Shown here: positions 33,778 through 39,907 of the stretch, piece after piece
Position numbering within the stretch: position 1 is the first letter of the stretch
Layout: the number at the start of each line of letters is the position of its first letter
Source of the DNA: an uncultured Ruminococcus sp.
GTDB lineage: Bacteria; Bacillota; Clostridia; Monoglobales; Monoglobaceae
Direction: 5' to 3'
Length of the DNA stretch: 41,465 bases
Assembly: GCA_902777435.1 (NCBI GenBank)
Contig: CACYTW010000002.1
Coordinates: 1 to 41,465, forward strand
Program-made: the position numbers and the translations under genes
The notes under the pieces: generated by a model
The model's database searches: none
What the model was told of the DNA's origin: nothing
The model's input: only the letters and a program-made list of their open reading frames with translations

Positions 33778-35562
33778 CTATTTAATTGTATATATCGTTT
33801 CCATTTCAATAGTACCTTTAAATTTTTTATCTTCGTTTTTTAACAGAGAAAAATCATCTATTAATGCCAAATCGACTATCGCCACCGAATAATGAATCGT
33901 AGTTTTCCCCAAATTGTCGTTTTCAATTTCAAACATCAGTATGTAATCCACATCAAGATACGGTATTACTTTAGATGATTTAGCTGCAATCGACGTATAT
34001 ATTGTGGAAAAATTATCGTTATCAATAATTTTATGAAACAATTTTTCAAGACCATTTTGTTTTTCAATATTTAATTTAAATTCTTGTAACTTTATTGCAT
34101 CAGATTTACTTTTACTAAACACATCTTTGCATTCTTCAAGATAAACCCTTATGCCATTTTGGGAACATTTATATGCTATAATATCAATATATGTTCTGTT
34201 AACCGCTCTGCCCTCACCAGTCAAAACACATCTATCCCCTTGTGCACCGGGATAACTTACGGCTAACAACTTACATTTGATTTTTTTATATAACTCCACA
34301 CTTGCAAATGTAATAATATCTTCCTTTACATTTTCCATACTAAGTGGAGAAATATCTGTGATATCAAATTTATCAGCAGAAAATCCATTAATAAAATTCT
34401 TGATGGGTGCCTCATTCCATTTTATACTACATATAACATCTCTTTGTTTGTCCGTAAGTTGTAATTCTGTGGATAGAAAAAATATTGATTTAGTAGCTAC
34501 GCTGTAGTGGGTGTTTAAAAAACGCAGTAAGTCATCATCATTTATAAAATAATTATGTTCAGAAATTTTTTCAAACGGCATTGCATCATCTATGTTTAAT
34601 GCGGTTTTAAAAACATAGATTGCATTTTCATCGGTAAAAACATTGCCCTTTTCAATTATTTCTTTTACATACCTCTCCAACATATTCTCTTTGCTTATAT
34701 TATCAAATAATTTTTTATATCCTCCTCTGCATGTATAATCATCGGGTCTGTTAACTTGTATTTCAGTAATTGTATTTTGAGCTCCAAGCAACATATTAAC
34801 AAAATACAAAACACCTCTATCCGGATCCATAGCATGTCCAAAACGATTAATTTTAACTCTAAGTTTATCACCAAACCAATTAAATCGGGTGGATTCGGAA
34901 ATTATTTCTTTTATTATATCCGTTGTATAATAACTAATTATTTTTTGATTTTGACTGACATAATCTGCTTGAAGAACAGAAAAATATTCATCAAAAGATG
35001 CAACAGATAAAAAACAATGCAACATATATCTTAATTTATCATCAATATCCTTAGAATACGCAATGCAAGACAGAGCATCTTCTTTTACGGCGAGATAATC
35101 CTTACCCTTTTCATTTTCCCAAGGAATAAAATACATAACAGCATTATTCTTGCATGCCATTGCAATTTCCAATTCATCAGTAAACTTTGCACCTCCTCCA
35201 AACTCTTGCTCCATTCCCTTAGAAACAGGTGAAATTTTCATCATTGGCGTTTTAAATTTTGCACTCCAATAACACACATCCGATCTTTGCATTTTATGAT
35301 CATCTGTAGGAACTGCTGTTGAATACTCGATAATTAAAAGAGGATATTCATTATTATTCGATACAGCTGTTATGAGAACATCTATATCTTTTATTTTTCT
35401 GATTTTGTCTACAACAGAATCATCCGTTTGATTTTCTCCGCTAATTTTTTTCGTATAAATATTTTTGATTAATAGTTCGGAATTGTACCTCTTAATATAC
35501 TCTTTAAAATCAAGCCCTTGTTCTAAAACTTCAGCATAAATTCTGATTTCATCAATATTCAT
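33778..35562 (-). CDS. Candidate type II restriction endonuclease, two PD-(D/E)XK-like motifs
   Basis: A 594-aa protein I do not recognise by name. It is the last gene of an operon with two DNA methyltransferases, overlapping the second by 4 bases, the usual place for a restriction enzyme. Near the C-terminus, RTYIDIIAY (Asp460) followed by IRVYLEECKD (Glu477-Cys-Lys479) fits a PD-(D/E)XK nuclease core. Near the N-terminus, IDVLITAV (Asp61) and LLIIEYSTAV (Glu79, with Ser in place of Lys) looks like a second, degenerate core. Between them lie KINRFGHAMDPDRGVLYF and SYPGAQGDR. The operon looks more AT-rich than its neighbours, suggesting transfer. Nuclease function is inferred; the target sequence is unknown. 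Confidence 0.65.
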   Translation of the reverse strand: MNIDEIRIYAEVLEQGLDFKEYIKRYNSELLIKNIYTKKISGENQTDDSVVDKIRKIKDIDVLITAVSNNNEYPLLIIEYSTAVPTDDHKMQRSDVCYWSAKFKTPMMKISPVSKGMEQEFGGGAKFTDELEIAMACKNNAVMYFIPWENEKGKDYLAVKEDALSCIAYSKDIDDKLRYMLHCFLSVASFDEYFSVLQADYVSQNQKIISYYTTDIIKEIISESTRFNWFGDKLRVKINRFGHAMDPDRGVLYFVNMLLGAQNTITEIQVNRPDDYTCRGGYKKLFDNISKENMLERYVKEIIEKGNVFTDENAIYVFKTALNIDDAMPFEKISEHNYFINDDDLLRFLNTHYSVATKSIFFLSTELQLTDKQRDVICSIKWNEAPIKNFINGFSADKFDITDISPLSMENVKEDIITFASVELYKKIKCKLLAVSYPGAQGDRCVLTGEGRAVNRTYIDIIAYKCSQNGIRVYLEECKDVFSKSKSDAIKLQEFKLNIEKQNGLEKLFHKIIDNDNFSTIYTSIAAKSSKVIPYLDVDYILMFEIENDNLGKTTIHYSVAIVDLALIDDFSLLKNEDKKFKGTIEMETIYTIK

Positions 35563-36659
35563 AGTTTCACCATCTTTCTAAAAGTCAAAATATGTTCTTT
35601 TTTTCCTTTGGTCCTGTACGATTGTTGAAATGCACGAGAGGTATCATCAAGACTTGAGAAAGAATAATCTATAAGTTTCCATCCTATTTTTTCTGCAATA
35701 CTTATCATATTTTTTTTCGCGTCATACATTTTTCCCGAAATCTTTCCATCTCCAATAACAATTACAGCTATACCATTTTCTTTCAACACAAGGTTACACT
35801 GTTCAAAAATTTCAATCAAATCTTTATTAAATTTCTCTTCCGTTCTTTTTAAACTTGAATATTCACGTCGTGATCCGATTTCAGTATTCATCGAATATTG
35901 AACGTCATATCCCAACCAATTCATTCTATGTTTATGATACAAGTAATAGTCATATGTATTTACATATGGCGGTGAAGTGAGAATTAAATCTACAGAGTTA
36001 GGTTTAATTAAATTTGTACAAAGCCTGGAATCAAGAAGTACCGCGTCATTATCTTTATTCCTTGGATTTTTGTCAAATTCTTTACAAAGTGCTAAAATGC
36101 TCTTAAACTTTTTAATAAATGTGTTGGCCGCATATTCGACAGAAAGTTGTGGTTTTTCGACAGCTGCATATCTCGTATCACTTTCTTGATTTGATACAAG
36201 ATTAATTATTGTCGACATAACTGTTTTACAAAAAATCTGCTGATTATCAGGAAGATTGAGGATTTTATTTTTAATCAAGCTCAACACCTTTATAGAATCA
36301 TCGCAAAACCAATGTTCTATTGATTTGTAATATACTGTTTCAACCATCGTAATTTCTGATAAGTAATGCGTGGCAAAATCATCTATAAATATCTGTAGAT
36401 CGCAAAAATCCGATTCGGACAATTTTAGAATTTTAAATTTAGATATTAAAACAGCAATATGATTTACATCTGTACCGATACCACACCTGTCTAAAACACT
36501 TGTTGCCAGCAGAGTGGTACCAGATCCTACAAAAGGGTCATATACAACATCCTTAGGTGCTGTATATTTTTGTACATACTTTAATGCCAAATCAATTGGA
36601 TATTTGGCCGGGTATGGATGTACCCTATCAAATTTTTTCAATTGTTCAATATCTATCAT
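35559..36659 (-). CDS. SPPY-type DNA methyltransferase (second of operon)
   Basis: A SAM-dependent amino-methyltransferase (N4-cytosine or N6-adenine type), 366 aa. The N-terminus has HPYPAKYPIDLALKYVQKYT, then the SAM motif VVYDPFVGSGTTLLA (41-49), with the catalytic TSPPYVNTYDYYLYHKHR (228-232) far downstream, and a C-terminal GIAVIVIGDGK strand. The order is motif I before motif IV with a ~180-residue insert between, which may hold target recognition. TSPPY favours N4-cytosine, but this is not certain. It overlaps both neighbours by 4 bases (ATGA), so the three proteins are co-translated. Distinct from the first methyltransferase, so each probably protects one strand of an asymmetric site. 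Confidence 0.82.
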   Translation of the reverse strand: MIDIEQLKKFDRVHPYPAKYPIDLALKYVQKYTAPKDVVYDPFVGSGTTLLATSVLDRCGIGTDVNHIAVLISKFKILKLSESDFCDLQIFIDDFATHYLSEITMVETVYYKSIEHWFCDDSIKVLSLIKNKILNLPDNQQIFCKTVMSTIINLVSNQESDTRYAAVEKPQLSVEYAANTFIKKFKSILALCKEFDKNPRNKDNDAVLLDSRLCTNLIKPNSVDLILTSPPYVNTYDYYLYHKHRMNWLGYDVQYSMNTEIGSRREYSSLKRTEEKFNKDLIEIFEQCNLVLKENGIAVIVIGDGKISGKMYDAKKNMISIAEKIGWKLIDYSFSSLDDTSRAFQQSYRTKGKKEHILTFRKMVKL

Positions 36660-37582
36660 TTGGATTTCCTCATTATAACAATATAAGAATGATTTTGATT
36701 AACATAAAAAACAGATGGATATCCTAAAAGAACCAGCTTTCTATGTTGATTTTGGTCCCATATAATCAAATCGTGATAATAAAATCCTGCATCTTCACCC
36801 GCATTTGCTATTTTGGTGTGCAAATCAACGTATGGAATTTTATTCTTTGTATCTCTATAATCCTTAACTACCCACGCATTATACCCACCCGGTTTTGTAA
36901 TTCTAAATAACTCTCTCATAATTTCCTTGACTTTGTTTAAATATTTATCCATAGACATATTGCCCAAATCTCTTGGATCATCTGAATATAGATTAGTTGT
37001 TGAATTATTTTCTGTTACAAAAGCAGATTTTTTGTGACGCATCGTTCGATCCTCTACTACCTTATGGATTAAATCTGCATAAGGTGGCGAGGTAACTGTA
37101 AGTTGCACTTTATCATCTGAAATTCGTTTCAATATTTCACTGCAGTCACCTTTATAAAGCCTATGCTCCCCATAGATTGACTCTTCAAAAAAGTTAATCT
37201 GATTATTATCAACAATTTCAGAAATAGAAGTGTTTGCAACATCAAAAAAGCGATCTGTTAATTCTATTCCGATAGCATCTCTTTTCGCTTTTATAGCCGC
37301 TATTACAGTTGTTCCCGTCCCGAGAAAAGGATCCAAAACAACGTCTCCTTCTTTACTATACATTCTAATTAGCCTATCACACAGTTTTTCAGGATATGTA
37401 GCACCATGCACCAAATGCTTTTTTTTCCTTGTTGAAGATACATCGTTCCAAACACTTTTACTTAACTCTGTCCATTCACTCGCACATAGACCATTAAATG
37501 TCTTTTTTCGTTGTTCTTCTTTTTTTACAATATCTGCATCTTTCCGCATATCATTATTCTCGCCAAAAAGTTCTATACTCAT
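36656..37582 (-). CDS. SPPY-type DNA methyltransferase (first of operon)
   Basis: A SAM-dependent DNA amino-methyltransferase of 308 aa. After a charged N-terminus, KKKHLVHGATYPEKLCDRLI leads to the SAM motif VVLDPFLGTGTTVIAA (84-90) and IGIELTDRFFD. Motif IV is TVTSPPYADLIHKV (164-168), followed by FRITKPGGYNAWVVKDYRD. SPPY suggests N4-cytosine methylation. AGGAG stands six bases before the ATG. It is the first gene of the operon, behind its own extended -10 promoter with a leader of about 140 nt in which I see no controller (C-protein) gene. It overlaps the next methyltransferase by 4 bases. Confidence 0.85.
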   Translation of the reverse strand: MSIELFGENNDMRKDADIVKKEEQRKKTFNGLCASEWTELSKSVWNDVSSTRKKKHLVHGATYPEKLCDRLIRMYSKEGDVVLDPFLGTGTTVIAAIKAKRDAIGIELTDRFFDVANTSISEIVDNNQINFFEESIYGEHRLYKGDCSEILKRISDDKVQLTVTSPPYADLIHKVVEDRTMRHKKSAFVTENNSTTNLYSDDPRDLGNMSMDKYLNKVKEIMRELFRITKPGGYNAWVVKDYRDTKNKIPYVDLHTKIANAGEDAGFYYHDLIIWDQNQHRKLVLLGYPSVFYVNQNHSYIVIMRKSK

Positions 37583-37787: not shown

Positions 37788-37816
37788 TTGACATATTGAA
37801 CAATATGTGATAATAT
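37788..37816 (+). promoter_or_regulatory. Antisense RNA promoter, cassette 1
   Basis: TTGACA (37788-37793), a 17-bp spacer and TAATAT (37811-37816). The expected start is near 37822, at ATAGCAAGAG. Confidence 0.8.
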
Positions 37817-37821
37817 AAATA

Positions 37822-37915
37822 TAGCAAGAGGGAACGACATTAGTTGTTTCCGCAAAACAGTCAAATTAAATTAATCGACCGTCACTTTTGCAGAAGTGGC
37901 GGTTATCTCTTTATG
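37822..37915 (+). ncRNA. Putative antitoxin RNA, cassette 1
   Basis: A predicted small RNA of about 90-100 nt starts at the consensus plus promoter. Its 5' hairpin is GGAACGAC/GTTGTTTCC, and its 3' hairpin is CCGTCACTT (37879-37887) with AAGTGGCGG (37894-37902). It has no plausible ORF. Its 3' end runs antisense into the last codons and 3' end of the minus-strand peptide mRNA, as in known type I systems with convergent transcripts. The 3' T tract is weak, so the end point is uncertain. Confidence 0.6.
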
Positions 37916-37965
37916 TAAAGTATAATAATCATTACCAATAAAGTAAAGGAAATTATTTCTTCCAC
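37903..37965 (-). CDS. 20-aa hydrophobic peptide, putative type I toxin, copy 1
   Basis: A 20-codon ORF starts at GTG, 7 bases after the strong site AAAGGGGG (37980-37973). The product is a single membrane helix: acidic start VEE, core SFTLLVMIIIL, basic end YIKR. Compared with copy 2, codon differences are mostly silent (Ser, Thr, Leu, Val, Ile third positions) or conservative (Leu/Ile, Arg/Lys), so the peptide is under selection. The ribosome site lies in a hairpin (ACACC/GGTGT, 37970-37974 with 37986-37990), typical of translationally masked toxins. The stop abuts the shared hairpin. Toxicity is inferred. Confidence 0.7.
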   Translation of the reverse strand: MEEIISFTLLVMIIILYIKR

Positions 37966-38028
37966 ATTAACACCCCCTTTCGGTAGGTGTCGGAAACAAC
38001 CGCCGCCGTTTCTCTTGCTACGAATAGT

Positions 38029-38057
38029 ATTGTATCAGACTTCGATTATTTTGTCAA
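38029..38057 (-). promoter_or_regulatory. Toxin promoter, cassette 1
   Basis: On the minus strand TTGACA (38057-38052), 17 bp and TACAAT (38034-38029). The leader of about 57 nt starts close to GTAGCAAGAGAAACGG. Confidence 0.8.
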
Positions 38058-38076
38058 TTTTTATGTATTAAAATCA

Positions 38077-38105
38077 TTGACATATTCTAGAATATATGAT
38101 AATAT
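38077..38105 (+). promoter_or_regulatory. Antisense RNA promoter, cassette 2
   Basis: TTGACA (38077-38082), a 17-bp spacer and TAATAT (38100-38105), matching cassette 1. Confidence 0.8.
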
Positions 38106-38110
38106 AAATA

Positions 38111-38205
38111 TAGCAAGGGGAACGACATTAGTTGTTTCCGCAAAAATGTATAACTAAAATTTAGTCGTCTATCTTATGCGGAGATAGGCGGCTATTTCTT
38201 TATGT
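38111..38205 (+). ncRNA. Putative antitoxin RNA, cassette 2
   Basis: The same design as in cassette 1: the 5' hairpin GGAACGAC/GTTGTTTCC is identical. The 3' hairpin keeps its outer pairs CGTC/GGCG but has a different inner stem: TATCT (38170-38174) with AGATA (38182-38186) instead of ACTT/AAGT. Both versions pair fully, which is covariation supporting a real RNA structure. Confidence 0.6.
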
Positions 38206-38254
38206 AAATAATAATTATCATAACTAATAATGTAAATGACAACACATATTCCAT
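38192..38254 (-). CDS. 20-aa hydrophobic peptide, putative type I toxin, copy 2
   Basis: A 20-codon ORF starts at ATG after AAAGGGGGTG. The peptide begins MEYVL, shares the core SFTLLVMIII with copy 1, and ends IYIKK. Identical length and a conserved core despite many third-base changes argue that both are translated. A single-helix peptide with a basic tail is the usual form of membrane-acting type I toxins, but I do not recognise this as a named family. Confidence 0.72.
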   Translation of the reverse strand: MEYVLSFTLLVMIIIIYIKK

Positions 38255-38318
38255 AATCAACACCCCCTTTCGGTAGGTGTCGGAAACAACCGCCACCGTT
38301 TCTCTTGCTATAAGCAGT

Positions 38319-38347
38319 ATCATATCACATATATATAACTTTGTCAA
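38319..38347 (-). promoter_or_regulatory. Toxin promoter, cassette 2
   Basis: On the minus strand TTGACA (38347-38342), 17 bp and TATGAT (38324-38319). Confidence 0.8.
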
Positions 38348-38423: not shown

Positions 38424-38452
38424 TTGATATAAAATCAGAATAGTGGTATAAT
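38424..38452 (+). promoter_or_regulatory. Promoter of structured RNA
   Basis: TTGATA (38424-38429), a 17-bp spacer and a perfect TATAAT (38447-38452). Transcription should start near 38459. The stretch 38348-38423 before it holds nothing I can identify. Confidence 0.75.
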
Positions 38453-38458
38453 ATAATT

Positions 38459-38684
38459 ACCACATATTTTTGAATACAATAAAATATTTTATAATTTTGA
38501 TATTCCTTTTTGGAGTGTTTTTCTTTTGTTGCCCTTTGAAGTTTTGTGTTTTGTAAAAAACGCAGGCTTTACAATCGAAAACTCTTCATTGGGCAATTTC
38601 GTATTCAAGAATGTGTGGTAACATCTGAAGTGTAAGCCTCGTTTTTGTGCGTGGTGCAGACTTCTGTTACCACGCATTTTTTAT
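38459..38684 (+). ncRNA. Structured RNA, possible riboswitch-like leader with pseudoknot
   Basis: A ~225-nt transcript between a strong promoter and an intrinsic terminator. Pairings visible: ACCACA (38459-38464) with TGTGGT (38614-38619); TTGCCC..TGAAG (38529-38541) with CTTCA..GGGCAA (38584-38596) across a 2x2 internal loop; and TTGTAAA (38551-38557) with TTTACAA (38568-38574). The loop AACGCAGGC (38559-38567) can pair with GCCTCGTT (38636-38643), a pseudoknot. GTGGTAACA (38615-38623) can pair with the terminator 3' arm TGTTACCAC (38665-38673), an antiterminator alternative. It matches no riboswitch class I can recall. It may be a cis leader for the following small gene, or a stand-alone RNA. 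Confidence 0.6.
38648..38682 (+). terminator. Intrinsic terminator of the structured RNA
   Basis: TGCGTGGT (38648-38655) pairs with ACCACGCA (38669-38676). An inner CAGA/TCTG (38657-38660 with 38663-38666) extends the stem, and six T residues follow directly. Confidence 0.85.
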
Positions 38685-38713
38685 TGTGGAATAAATCAAA
38701 GGAGATTGCTGTT

Positions 38714-38845
38714 ATGGAAGATTACAAGAGTATGTATTTCAAATTATTTAATCAAATAACCGATATTATCGAACAGCTCAAAGAAATACAAGCAACGACA
38801 GAAGAAATGTACGTAAATGCAAATTCAGATGATGACGATGAATAG
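38714..38845 (+). CDS. 43-aa acidic hypothetical protein
   Basis: A small protein, MEDYKSMYFKLFNQITDIIE at the start, then QLKEIQATTEEMYVNA and an acidic NSDDDDE tail. It looks like a single amphipathic helix or short coiled coil (about 5-35). AAAGGAG (38698-38704) stands 9 bases before the ATG, so translation is likely. Similar small helical proteins occur in gut Clostridia, from memory, without known function. It lies 30 bases after the terminator of the structured RNA, so its expression may depend on readthrough. A bidirectional terminator follows. Confidence 0.65.
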   Translation: MEDYKSMYFKLFNQITDIIEQLKEIQATTEEMYVNANSDDDDE

Positions 38846-38859
38846 CGTTATATTGACAC

Positions 38860-38891
38860 AAAAAACAGGCTCCTTAGAGAGCCTGTTTTTT
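38860..38891. terminator. Bidirectional terminator between convergent genes
   Basis: A perfect 13-bp inverted repeat (38860-38872 with 38879-38891, core ACAGGCTC) has A6 on one side and T6 on the other, so it works on both strands. It separates the 43-aa gene from the GGGtGRT gene. Confidence 0.9.
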
Positions 38892-38905: not shown

Positions 38906-39907
38906 TTATTTCTTCATTGCTTGTTCAACAGCAACTGCAACCGCAACTGTTGCACCTACCATTGGGTTATTACCCATACCGATAAGTCCCATCATTTCAA
39001 CGTGAGCAGGAACAGAAGATGAACCTGCGAACTGAGCATCTGAGTGCATTCTACCCATTGTATCTGTCATACCATAAGAAGCAGGACCGGCAGCCATATT
39101 ATCAGGATGGAGAGTTCTTCCCGTACCGCCGCCTGATGCAACTGAGAAGTATTTTTTACCTTGCTCGATACATTCCTTCTTGTATGTACCTGCAACAGGA
39201 TGCTGGAAACGAGTTGGGTTTGTTGAGTTACCTGTGATAGATACGTCAACACCTTCAAGGTGCATTATAGCAACACCCTCACGAACGTCGTCAGCACCAT
39301 AACAGCGAACCTTTGAACGCTCGCCGTCTGAATACTTATATTCCTTAACGACCTTAACTTCACCTGTAAAGTAGTCAAACTGAGTCTGAACATATGTGAA
39401 GCCGTTAATTCTTGAAATAATCTGAGCAGCATCCTTACCAAGACCGTTCAAAATAACTCTGAGGTCTTCTTTTCTTGCCTTGTTTGCACTCTTAGCAAGA
39501 CCGATAGCACCCTCAGCGGCAGCGAAGGATTCGTGACCTGCAAGGAAAGCAAAGCACTTTGTTTCTTCACGCAAGAGTCTTGCGCCGAGATTACCGTGAC
39601 CTAAACCAACCTTTCTGTCGTCTGCAACAGAACCCGGGATACAGAAAGCCTGTAAACCAAGACCGATTTTTTCTGATGCGTCAGCAGCAACTGTGCAACC
39701 CTCTTTGATAGCGATAGCGGCACCTACAGTGTATGCCCAGCAAGCGTTTTCAAAGCAGATAGGCTGAATTTCCTTTACCATATTGTAAACATCTATACCC
39801 TTATCGTCACAGATTTGCTTAGCCTCTTCTATTGAAGAAATGCCGTGCTTTTTAAGTTCTGCGTTGATTTGGTCTATTCTTCTTTCATAGCTTTCAAATA
39901 ATGCCAT
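38906..39907 (-). CDS. GGGtGRT protein
   Basis: A 333-aa member of the GGGtGRT family, named for its invariant glycine-rich motif, here SVASGGGTGRTLHPDNMAAG. Other conserved blocks are CWAYTVGAAIAIKEGC, KCFAFLAGHESFAAAEGAIG and MMGLIGMGNNPMVGATVAVA. The function is not established; the gene is characteristically next to an IscU-like scaffold gene, as here (17 bases downstream of it). This suggests a role connected with Fe-S clusters, which is inference. It is the second gene of a two-gene operon. Confidence 0.92.
   Translation of the reverse strand: MALFESYERRIDQINAELKKHGISSIEEAKQICDDKGIDVYNMVKEIQPICFENACWAYTVGAAIAIKEGCTVAADASEKIGLGLQAFCIPGSVADDRKVGLGHGNLGARLLREETKCFAFLAGHESFAAAEGAIGLAKSANKARKEDLRVILNGLGKDAAQIISRINGFTYVQTQFDYFTGEVKVVKEYKYSDGERSKVRCYGADDVREGVAIMHLEGVDVSITGNSTNPTRFQHPVAGTYKKECIEQGKKYFSVASGGGTGRTLHPDNMAAGPASYGMTDTMGRMHSDAQFAGSSSVPAHVEMMGLIGMGNNPMVGATVAVAVAVEQAMKK

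Follow-up and report, generated by a model that had tools for sequence, protein, structure and literature searches.

The stretch from 38459 to 38682 of the window (the whole 41,465-nucleotide DNA analysed here) is predicted from its sequence to encode a structured leader RNA that has its own promoter and comprises a closing stem, a long-range pseudoknot and an intrinsic terminator. With good though not complete confidence, we assign this RNA to an uncatalogued class of cis-acting, riboswitch-like transcription attenuators of Clostridia that serve mainly exported proteins; there are no transcript, termination or binding data, and the evidence comes from sequences alone, mostly of incomplete metagenome-assembled genomes. 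The predicted features of the locus are the following.

38424-38452, plus strand: sigma-A type promoter, TTGATA and TATAAT separated by 17 nt (11 of 12 consensus matches), with an extended -10 TG
38459-38477, plus strand: 5' strand of the closing stem P1 in the fold, starting at the inferred first transcribed base
38479-38492 and 38499-38519, plus strand: two small variable hairpins, seen only in the minimum free energy (MFE) fold and without covariation evidence
38528-38541 with 38584-38597, plus strand: arm P2 of the MFE fold, bearing the apical hairpin P3
about 38556-38573, plus strand: pseudoknot strand 1, AAAAACGCAGGCTTTACA, in P3, with an A-run nearly invariant among copies
38601-38619, plus strand: 3' strand of P1, ending in TGTGTGGT and followed by a conserved AACA
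38617-38671, plus strand: antiterminator of the window, GGTAACA (38617-38623) with TGTTACC (38665-38671) and GAAGT (38627-38631) with ACTTC (38660-38664)
38630-38646, plus strand: pseudoknot strand 2, GTGTAAGCCTCGTTTTT, which family-wide also pairs with the 5' arm and loop of the terminator (antiterminator)
38648-38682, plus strand: intrinsic terminator, TGCGTGGT and ACCACGCA followed by six T, with arms that covary across copies
38700-38704, plus strand: ribosome-binding site AGGAG, from the sequence
38714-38845, plus strand: open reading frame for a 43-aa acidic helical protein of a small family
38860-38891, plus strand: intrinsic terminator after the 43-aa gene, from the sequence

The segment 38457-38690 has an MFE of -78.6 kcal/mol, compared to -43.6 +/- 3.9 kcal/mol for shuffled sequences (z -9.0; 0 of 200 shuffles). 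P1 is a 19-bp closing stem, at the end of which ACCACA (38459-38464) is paired with TGTGGT (38614-38619). Strand 1 of the pseudoknot is made up of P3's 3' half and the nucleotides beyond it, and its partner is located outside P1; the predicted energy of this pairing in the window, -16.7 kcal/mol, was equalled by 2 of 2000 shuffled partners. With the pseudoknot left out of the computation, the window's two complete folds are predicted at -75.0 kcal/mol (terminated) and -72.8 kcal/mol (antiterminated), a gap of 2.2 kcal/mol. An earlier note on this DNA, made without database searches, had described a strong promoter, an RNA of about 225 nt with several helices and a pseudoknot between a loop and a downstream segment. 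The promoter bears out that description, the fold contains the helices (P1, the small hairpins, P2/P3 and the terminator), and the pseudoknot is supported both in the window and by compensatory changes in homologues.

An initial DNA comparison revealed diverged copies of the RNA in related genomes, in front of differing genes. A covariance model (R1) covering the 3'-most 71 positions of the RNA matched 35 of the 38 genomes of the family, with up to 34 copies per genome, often in tandem, and 61 of the 292 genomes that were sampled from the class. In a sample of 299 genomes from the phylum, which was searched with stricter filters and included some members of the class, the window's own genome was the only one matched. 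A second covariance model, from which the genus of the window was excluded, recovered the window at 38611-38685 (65.1 bits, E 7e-13); the E-values of these models are rough. Named carriers detected by an exact pattern are mostly uncultured Clostridia, including several named Monoglobus and many from samples labelled Lapin; Lachnospiraceae bacterium MD329 is among the named carriers. There are six copies in the window's own genome, two of the others preceding similar small proteins and two preceding SLOG proteins. Thus, the RNA does precede the 43-aa gene in the window, as the earlier note had it, but it is not specific to this gene, being one of a large paralogous class found before many genes.

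Conservation of the closing stem was assessed in 109 non-redundant copies in which the -10 box was located without regard to pairing. When the 5' strand of P1 was taken exactly 6 nt past the -10 box, all six positions examined were paired in 88 of these copies, whereas any other offset gave full pairing in at most 6, implying that P1 begins at the inferred first transcribed base. Among the distinct P1 variants, two-sided changes are observed at five of the six pairs, and position 3 occurs as CG, GC, UA and AU; this variant set includes only copies with at least five of six pairs, so that the percentage paired is biased upwards. The other pairings were assessed by comparing the pairing energy of strands from one and the same copy with that of strands exchanged between copies (5000 permutations). 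Both the pseudoknot strands (-12.9 kcal/mol with their own partners, -8.9 when swapped) and strand 2 with the terminator 5' arm and loop (-15.9 and -10.7 kcal/mol) gave means that no permutation reached, with ancestry incompletely corrected for. The same signal for the pseudoknot and antiterminator is detectable among paralogues within each of three genomes (G029, G016 and G036), while the 5 copies of G006 gave no clear signal either way. Homologous loci, which the earlier note had proposed to test for compensatory changes, thus display them in the closing stem, the pseudoknot and the antiterminator.

The switch as originally drawn fared less well. The earlier note had TGTGGT pairing either with ACCACA or with the 3' arm of the terminator, and both pairings are possible in the window; family-wide, however, the P1 3' strand pairs with the terminator 3' arm only weakly above chance (-8.9 kcal/mol with own partners, -7.7 when swapped), and by eye this pairing fails in loci L110 and L111, so we rejected it as the general switch. 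Mutually exclusive pairings at the terminator do exist, but the conserved competition is that of the pseudoknot strand with the terminator 5' arm and loop.

The near-invariant core of the RNA comprises the A-run of P3 (four positions, 95-100%), a T-run after strand 2, and TGTGTNG closing P1, followed by ARC. Strand 2 repeats GCGTTTTT, which is typical of the 5' side of P3, so that strand exchange or a U.A-U triplex is conceivable, although this is speculation. Two riboswitch criteria are fulfilled, namely a conserved, structured, aptamer-like domain with covariation and an expression platform in which a terminator and a competing antiterminator precede a gene. The transcriptional riboswitch logic inferred previously is accordingly supported with respect to this platform; in the strict sense of direct ligand binding, it has not been shown.

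The genes that follow the copies have ribosome-binding sites, with start codons usually 15-100 nt past the terminator. A crude signal-peptide rule, applied to downstream proteins with a length of 130 aa or more, marks 57 of 69 as exported, compared to 28 of 159 in a background set drawn from different but in part overlapping genomes (Fisher p 8e-21). The 103 distinct downstream proteins include 19 with BspA-type leucine-rich repeats (LRR), 8 with the Cu-amine-oxidase N-domain, 7 with SLH domains, 6 of the AbrB/MazE type and 5 YpsA-like SLOG proteins; no common metabolic theme that would hint at a ligand was found among these genes. SLOG/YpsA-like proteins with an initial CCxFGHRK motif recur after the RNA in different families (loci L076, L077, L142, L154, L180, L271 and L272).

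The 43-aa family was found in 14 of 38 genomes by a profile search blind to the RNA, and the attenuator RNA lies upstream of 29 of the 30 loci examined (the weakest RNA matches are near E 0.003). Given this recurrent position, we regard the 43-aa gene as real on sequence grounds, in line with the translated helical protein that had been proposed. All its Pfam matches were below the cut-off and were treated as chance, which leaves the family without a Pfam name.

Several other features of the window were observed. Upstream of the leader, at 37788-38347, two modules lie in tandem at a spacing of about 289 bp. In each of them, a promoter on the minus strand accompanies a 20-aa hydrophobic peptide (MEYVLSFTLLVMIIIIYIKK at 38254 and VEEIISFTLLVMIIILYIKR at 37965) and a convergent promoter lies on the plus strand; judging from their sequences, the modules would be type I toxin-antitoxin-like pairs. 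Two adjoining minus-strand frames at 35559-37582 each match a part of the DNA methylase PF01555, and the 594-aa protein beside them (33778-35562) has no Pfam match; this is possibly a restriction-modification or defence locus. On the other side, a convergent gene at 38906-39907 encodes a member of the GGGtGRT family (PF14057, E 1e-196), for which we know of no function. A THF riboswitch aptamer (RF01831, 65.5 bits) is present at 1870-1981. Elsewhere, an OLE RNA (RF01071, 443 bits) is located near one copy of the attenuator (locus L067, 537-1182).

The proposed mechanism builds on the observed conservation of the architecture, the covariation, the positions of the RNA relative to promoter and gene, and the near-equal fold energies in the window. 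Transcription would begin at the first base of P1. Formation of P1 and of the pseudoknot between strands 1 and 2 would occupy strand 2 together with the 3' strand of P1, so that the terminator hairpin could form and the gene would be off. If the pseudoknot or P1 fails, the freed strands would pair with the 5' arm and loop of the terminator (in the window, also with its 3' arm), and capture of these elements would break the terminator and allow the gene to be transcribed. That the switch works in the cell, its direction and its response to a signal are all inferred, and some copies may be one-way folders.

The regulon consists mainly of exported proteins and also includes regulators of the AbrB type, SLOG/YpsA-like proteins and the 43-aa family; this composition suggests an envelope, surface or growth-state signal. 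Our leading guess is that a small molecule or ion binds the RNA directly, with about an even chance of being correct in the absence of binding data. The full reading is tentative, with a somewhat lower chance. In it, the RNAs would form a new class of riboswitch that is confined to Clostridia and has one of the highest copy numbers per genome; an unknown, directly bound ligand would act through the pseudoknot-governed terminator to set how far exported proteins, adhesin-like LRR and S-layer proteins among them, are expressed. Three candidates for the signal or factor are disfavoured. For c-di-GMP, genome G029 has 26 copies of the RNA and no GGDEF proteins, genome G022 has no copies and 12 GGDEF domains, and models of the GEMM-I and GEMM-II riboswitches matched neither the window nor 20 homologous loci. 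RNA-binding domains of SacT/LicT-type antiterminators were found in none of the 12 genomes tested. For LoaP, there were only sub-cutoff matches, one per genome and likewise in most control genomes, consistent with NusG.

The binding partner of the leader might instead be a protein or an RNA acting in trans, in which case such a factor, perhaps one made according to growth state, would stabilise or melt the pseudoknot and thereby set read-through. This is a genuine possibility, if a doubtful one: diverged copies with a conserved core suit a shared factor as well as they suit an aptamer, and a protein with an ANTAR domain is present in 11 of the 12 genomes tested, but such proteins also occur in G022 and G011, which lack the RNA, and none was found in G007 (18 copies; genome 82% complete); the results for SacT/LicT-type domains and LoaP weigh against this explanation as well.

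It is unlikely that the product is a stable sRNA that is freed at the terminator and acts in trans on mRNAs of envelope proteins, with the downstream genes being incidental. A separate promoter and terminator, a compact fold and, as with sibling sRNAs, many copies per genome would all be expected of such an RNA; however, the copies lie closely 5' of same-strand genes with ribosome-binding sites, the functions of these genes are non-random, with one small protein family recurring after the RNA, and the antiterminator, conserved by covariation, would be superfluous.

We considered it very unlikely that the attenuator is a divergent relative of a known RNA, in spite of a closing stem reminiscent of 6S RNA and of tens of copies before surface genes, which are reminiscent of c-di-GMP riboswitches. 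In a cmscan search, the leader RNA of the window had no match to any Rfam 15 family at the gathering score and nothing plausible at E up to 10, and 20 homologous loci had no Rfam match at the RNA, which agrees with the failure of the earlier note to match a known class. The two outcomes that this note had named as refuting its proposal, a significant Rfam hit and a lack of compensatory changes in homologues, were both absent. Specifically, 6S RNA (RF00013) is not matched at the locus, the genome's own 6S RNA being on contig C115; the T-box (RF00230) is matched neither in the window nor in the 20 loci; type III antitoxin and abiF RNAs have no Rfam match here, and the downstream families include no cognate toxin. 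Nor do the copies track GGDEF proteins, as the genomes compared above indicate. No published description of the RNA was found in the open-access literature, supplements not being covered; an entry under an anonymous identifier, for example among the human-microbiome candidates of PMC8040213, is not excluded.

Finally, a MITE-like inverted-repeat mobile DNA that spreads a promoter and terminator without any RNA function is hardly credible, even with many copies per genome, some in tandem, and inverted-repeat ends, given the high divergence with compensatory changes among copies, the fixed spacing between promoter and stem, the consistent position before exported-protein genes and the absence of matches to two exact patterns (which miss diverged copies) in viral contigs. 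Within the same limit, this pattern search also gave no sign of a phage origin.

We know of few RNA devices that act on a whole secretome, and the attenuator class may represent a new mode of controlling displayed and secreted proteins in gut Clostridia. If so, it would offer a direct handle on surface change in commensal Clostridia, through genes for adhesin-like, S-layer, lipoprotein and cell-wall proteins, and its absence from Rfam in spite of its presence in about one fifth of the sampled genomes of the class would indicate how much regulatory RNA of uncultured lineages remains uncatalogued.

Among known systems, c-di-GMP (GEMM) riboswitches, for example those of Clostridioides difficile, occur in several copies per genome and control many surface and secreted proteins; the attenuator is similar in both respects, but has no match to them in sequence or structure and does not follow GGDEF proteins in its occurrence. 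T-box leaders number in the tens per genome in Firmicutes and choose between terminator and antiterminator, as the attenuator is proposed to do at comparable copy numbers; in contrast, the genes downstream of the attenuator are not related to amino acids and its P1 sequence varies freely. With 6S RNA it shares the long closing stem, whereas the pseudoknot, the terminator switch and the downstream gene set it apart. The abiF RNA (RF03085) consists of two short hairpin motifs before the AbiF toxin (PMC12373285); like this and type III antitoxin RNAs, the attenuator is a structured RNA with a terminator located 5' of a gene in Clostridia, but it lacks the two-hairpin motif and its downstream genes are diverse. 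Compared to transcription-attenuating riboswitches, it has no known ligand, precedes mainly exported proteins rather than the genes of a pathway and is missing from Rfam, and yet it is a 5' leader with a conserved core, a pseudoknot and mutually exclusive terminator and antiterminator structures in front of genes, as they are.
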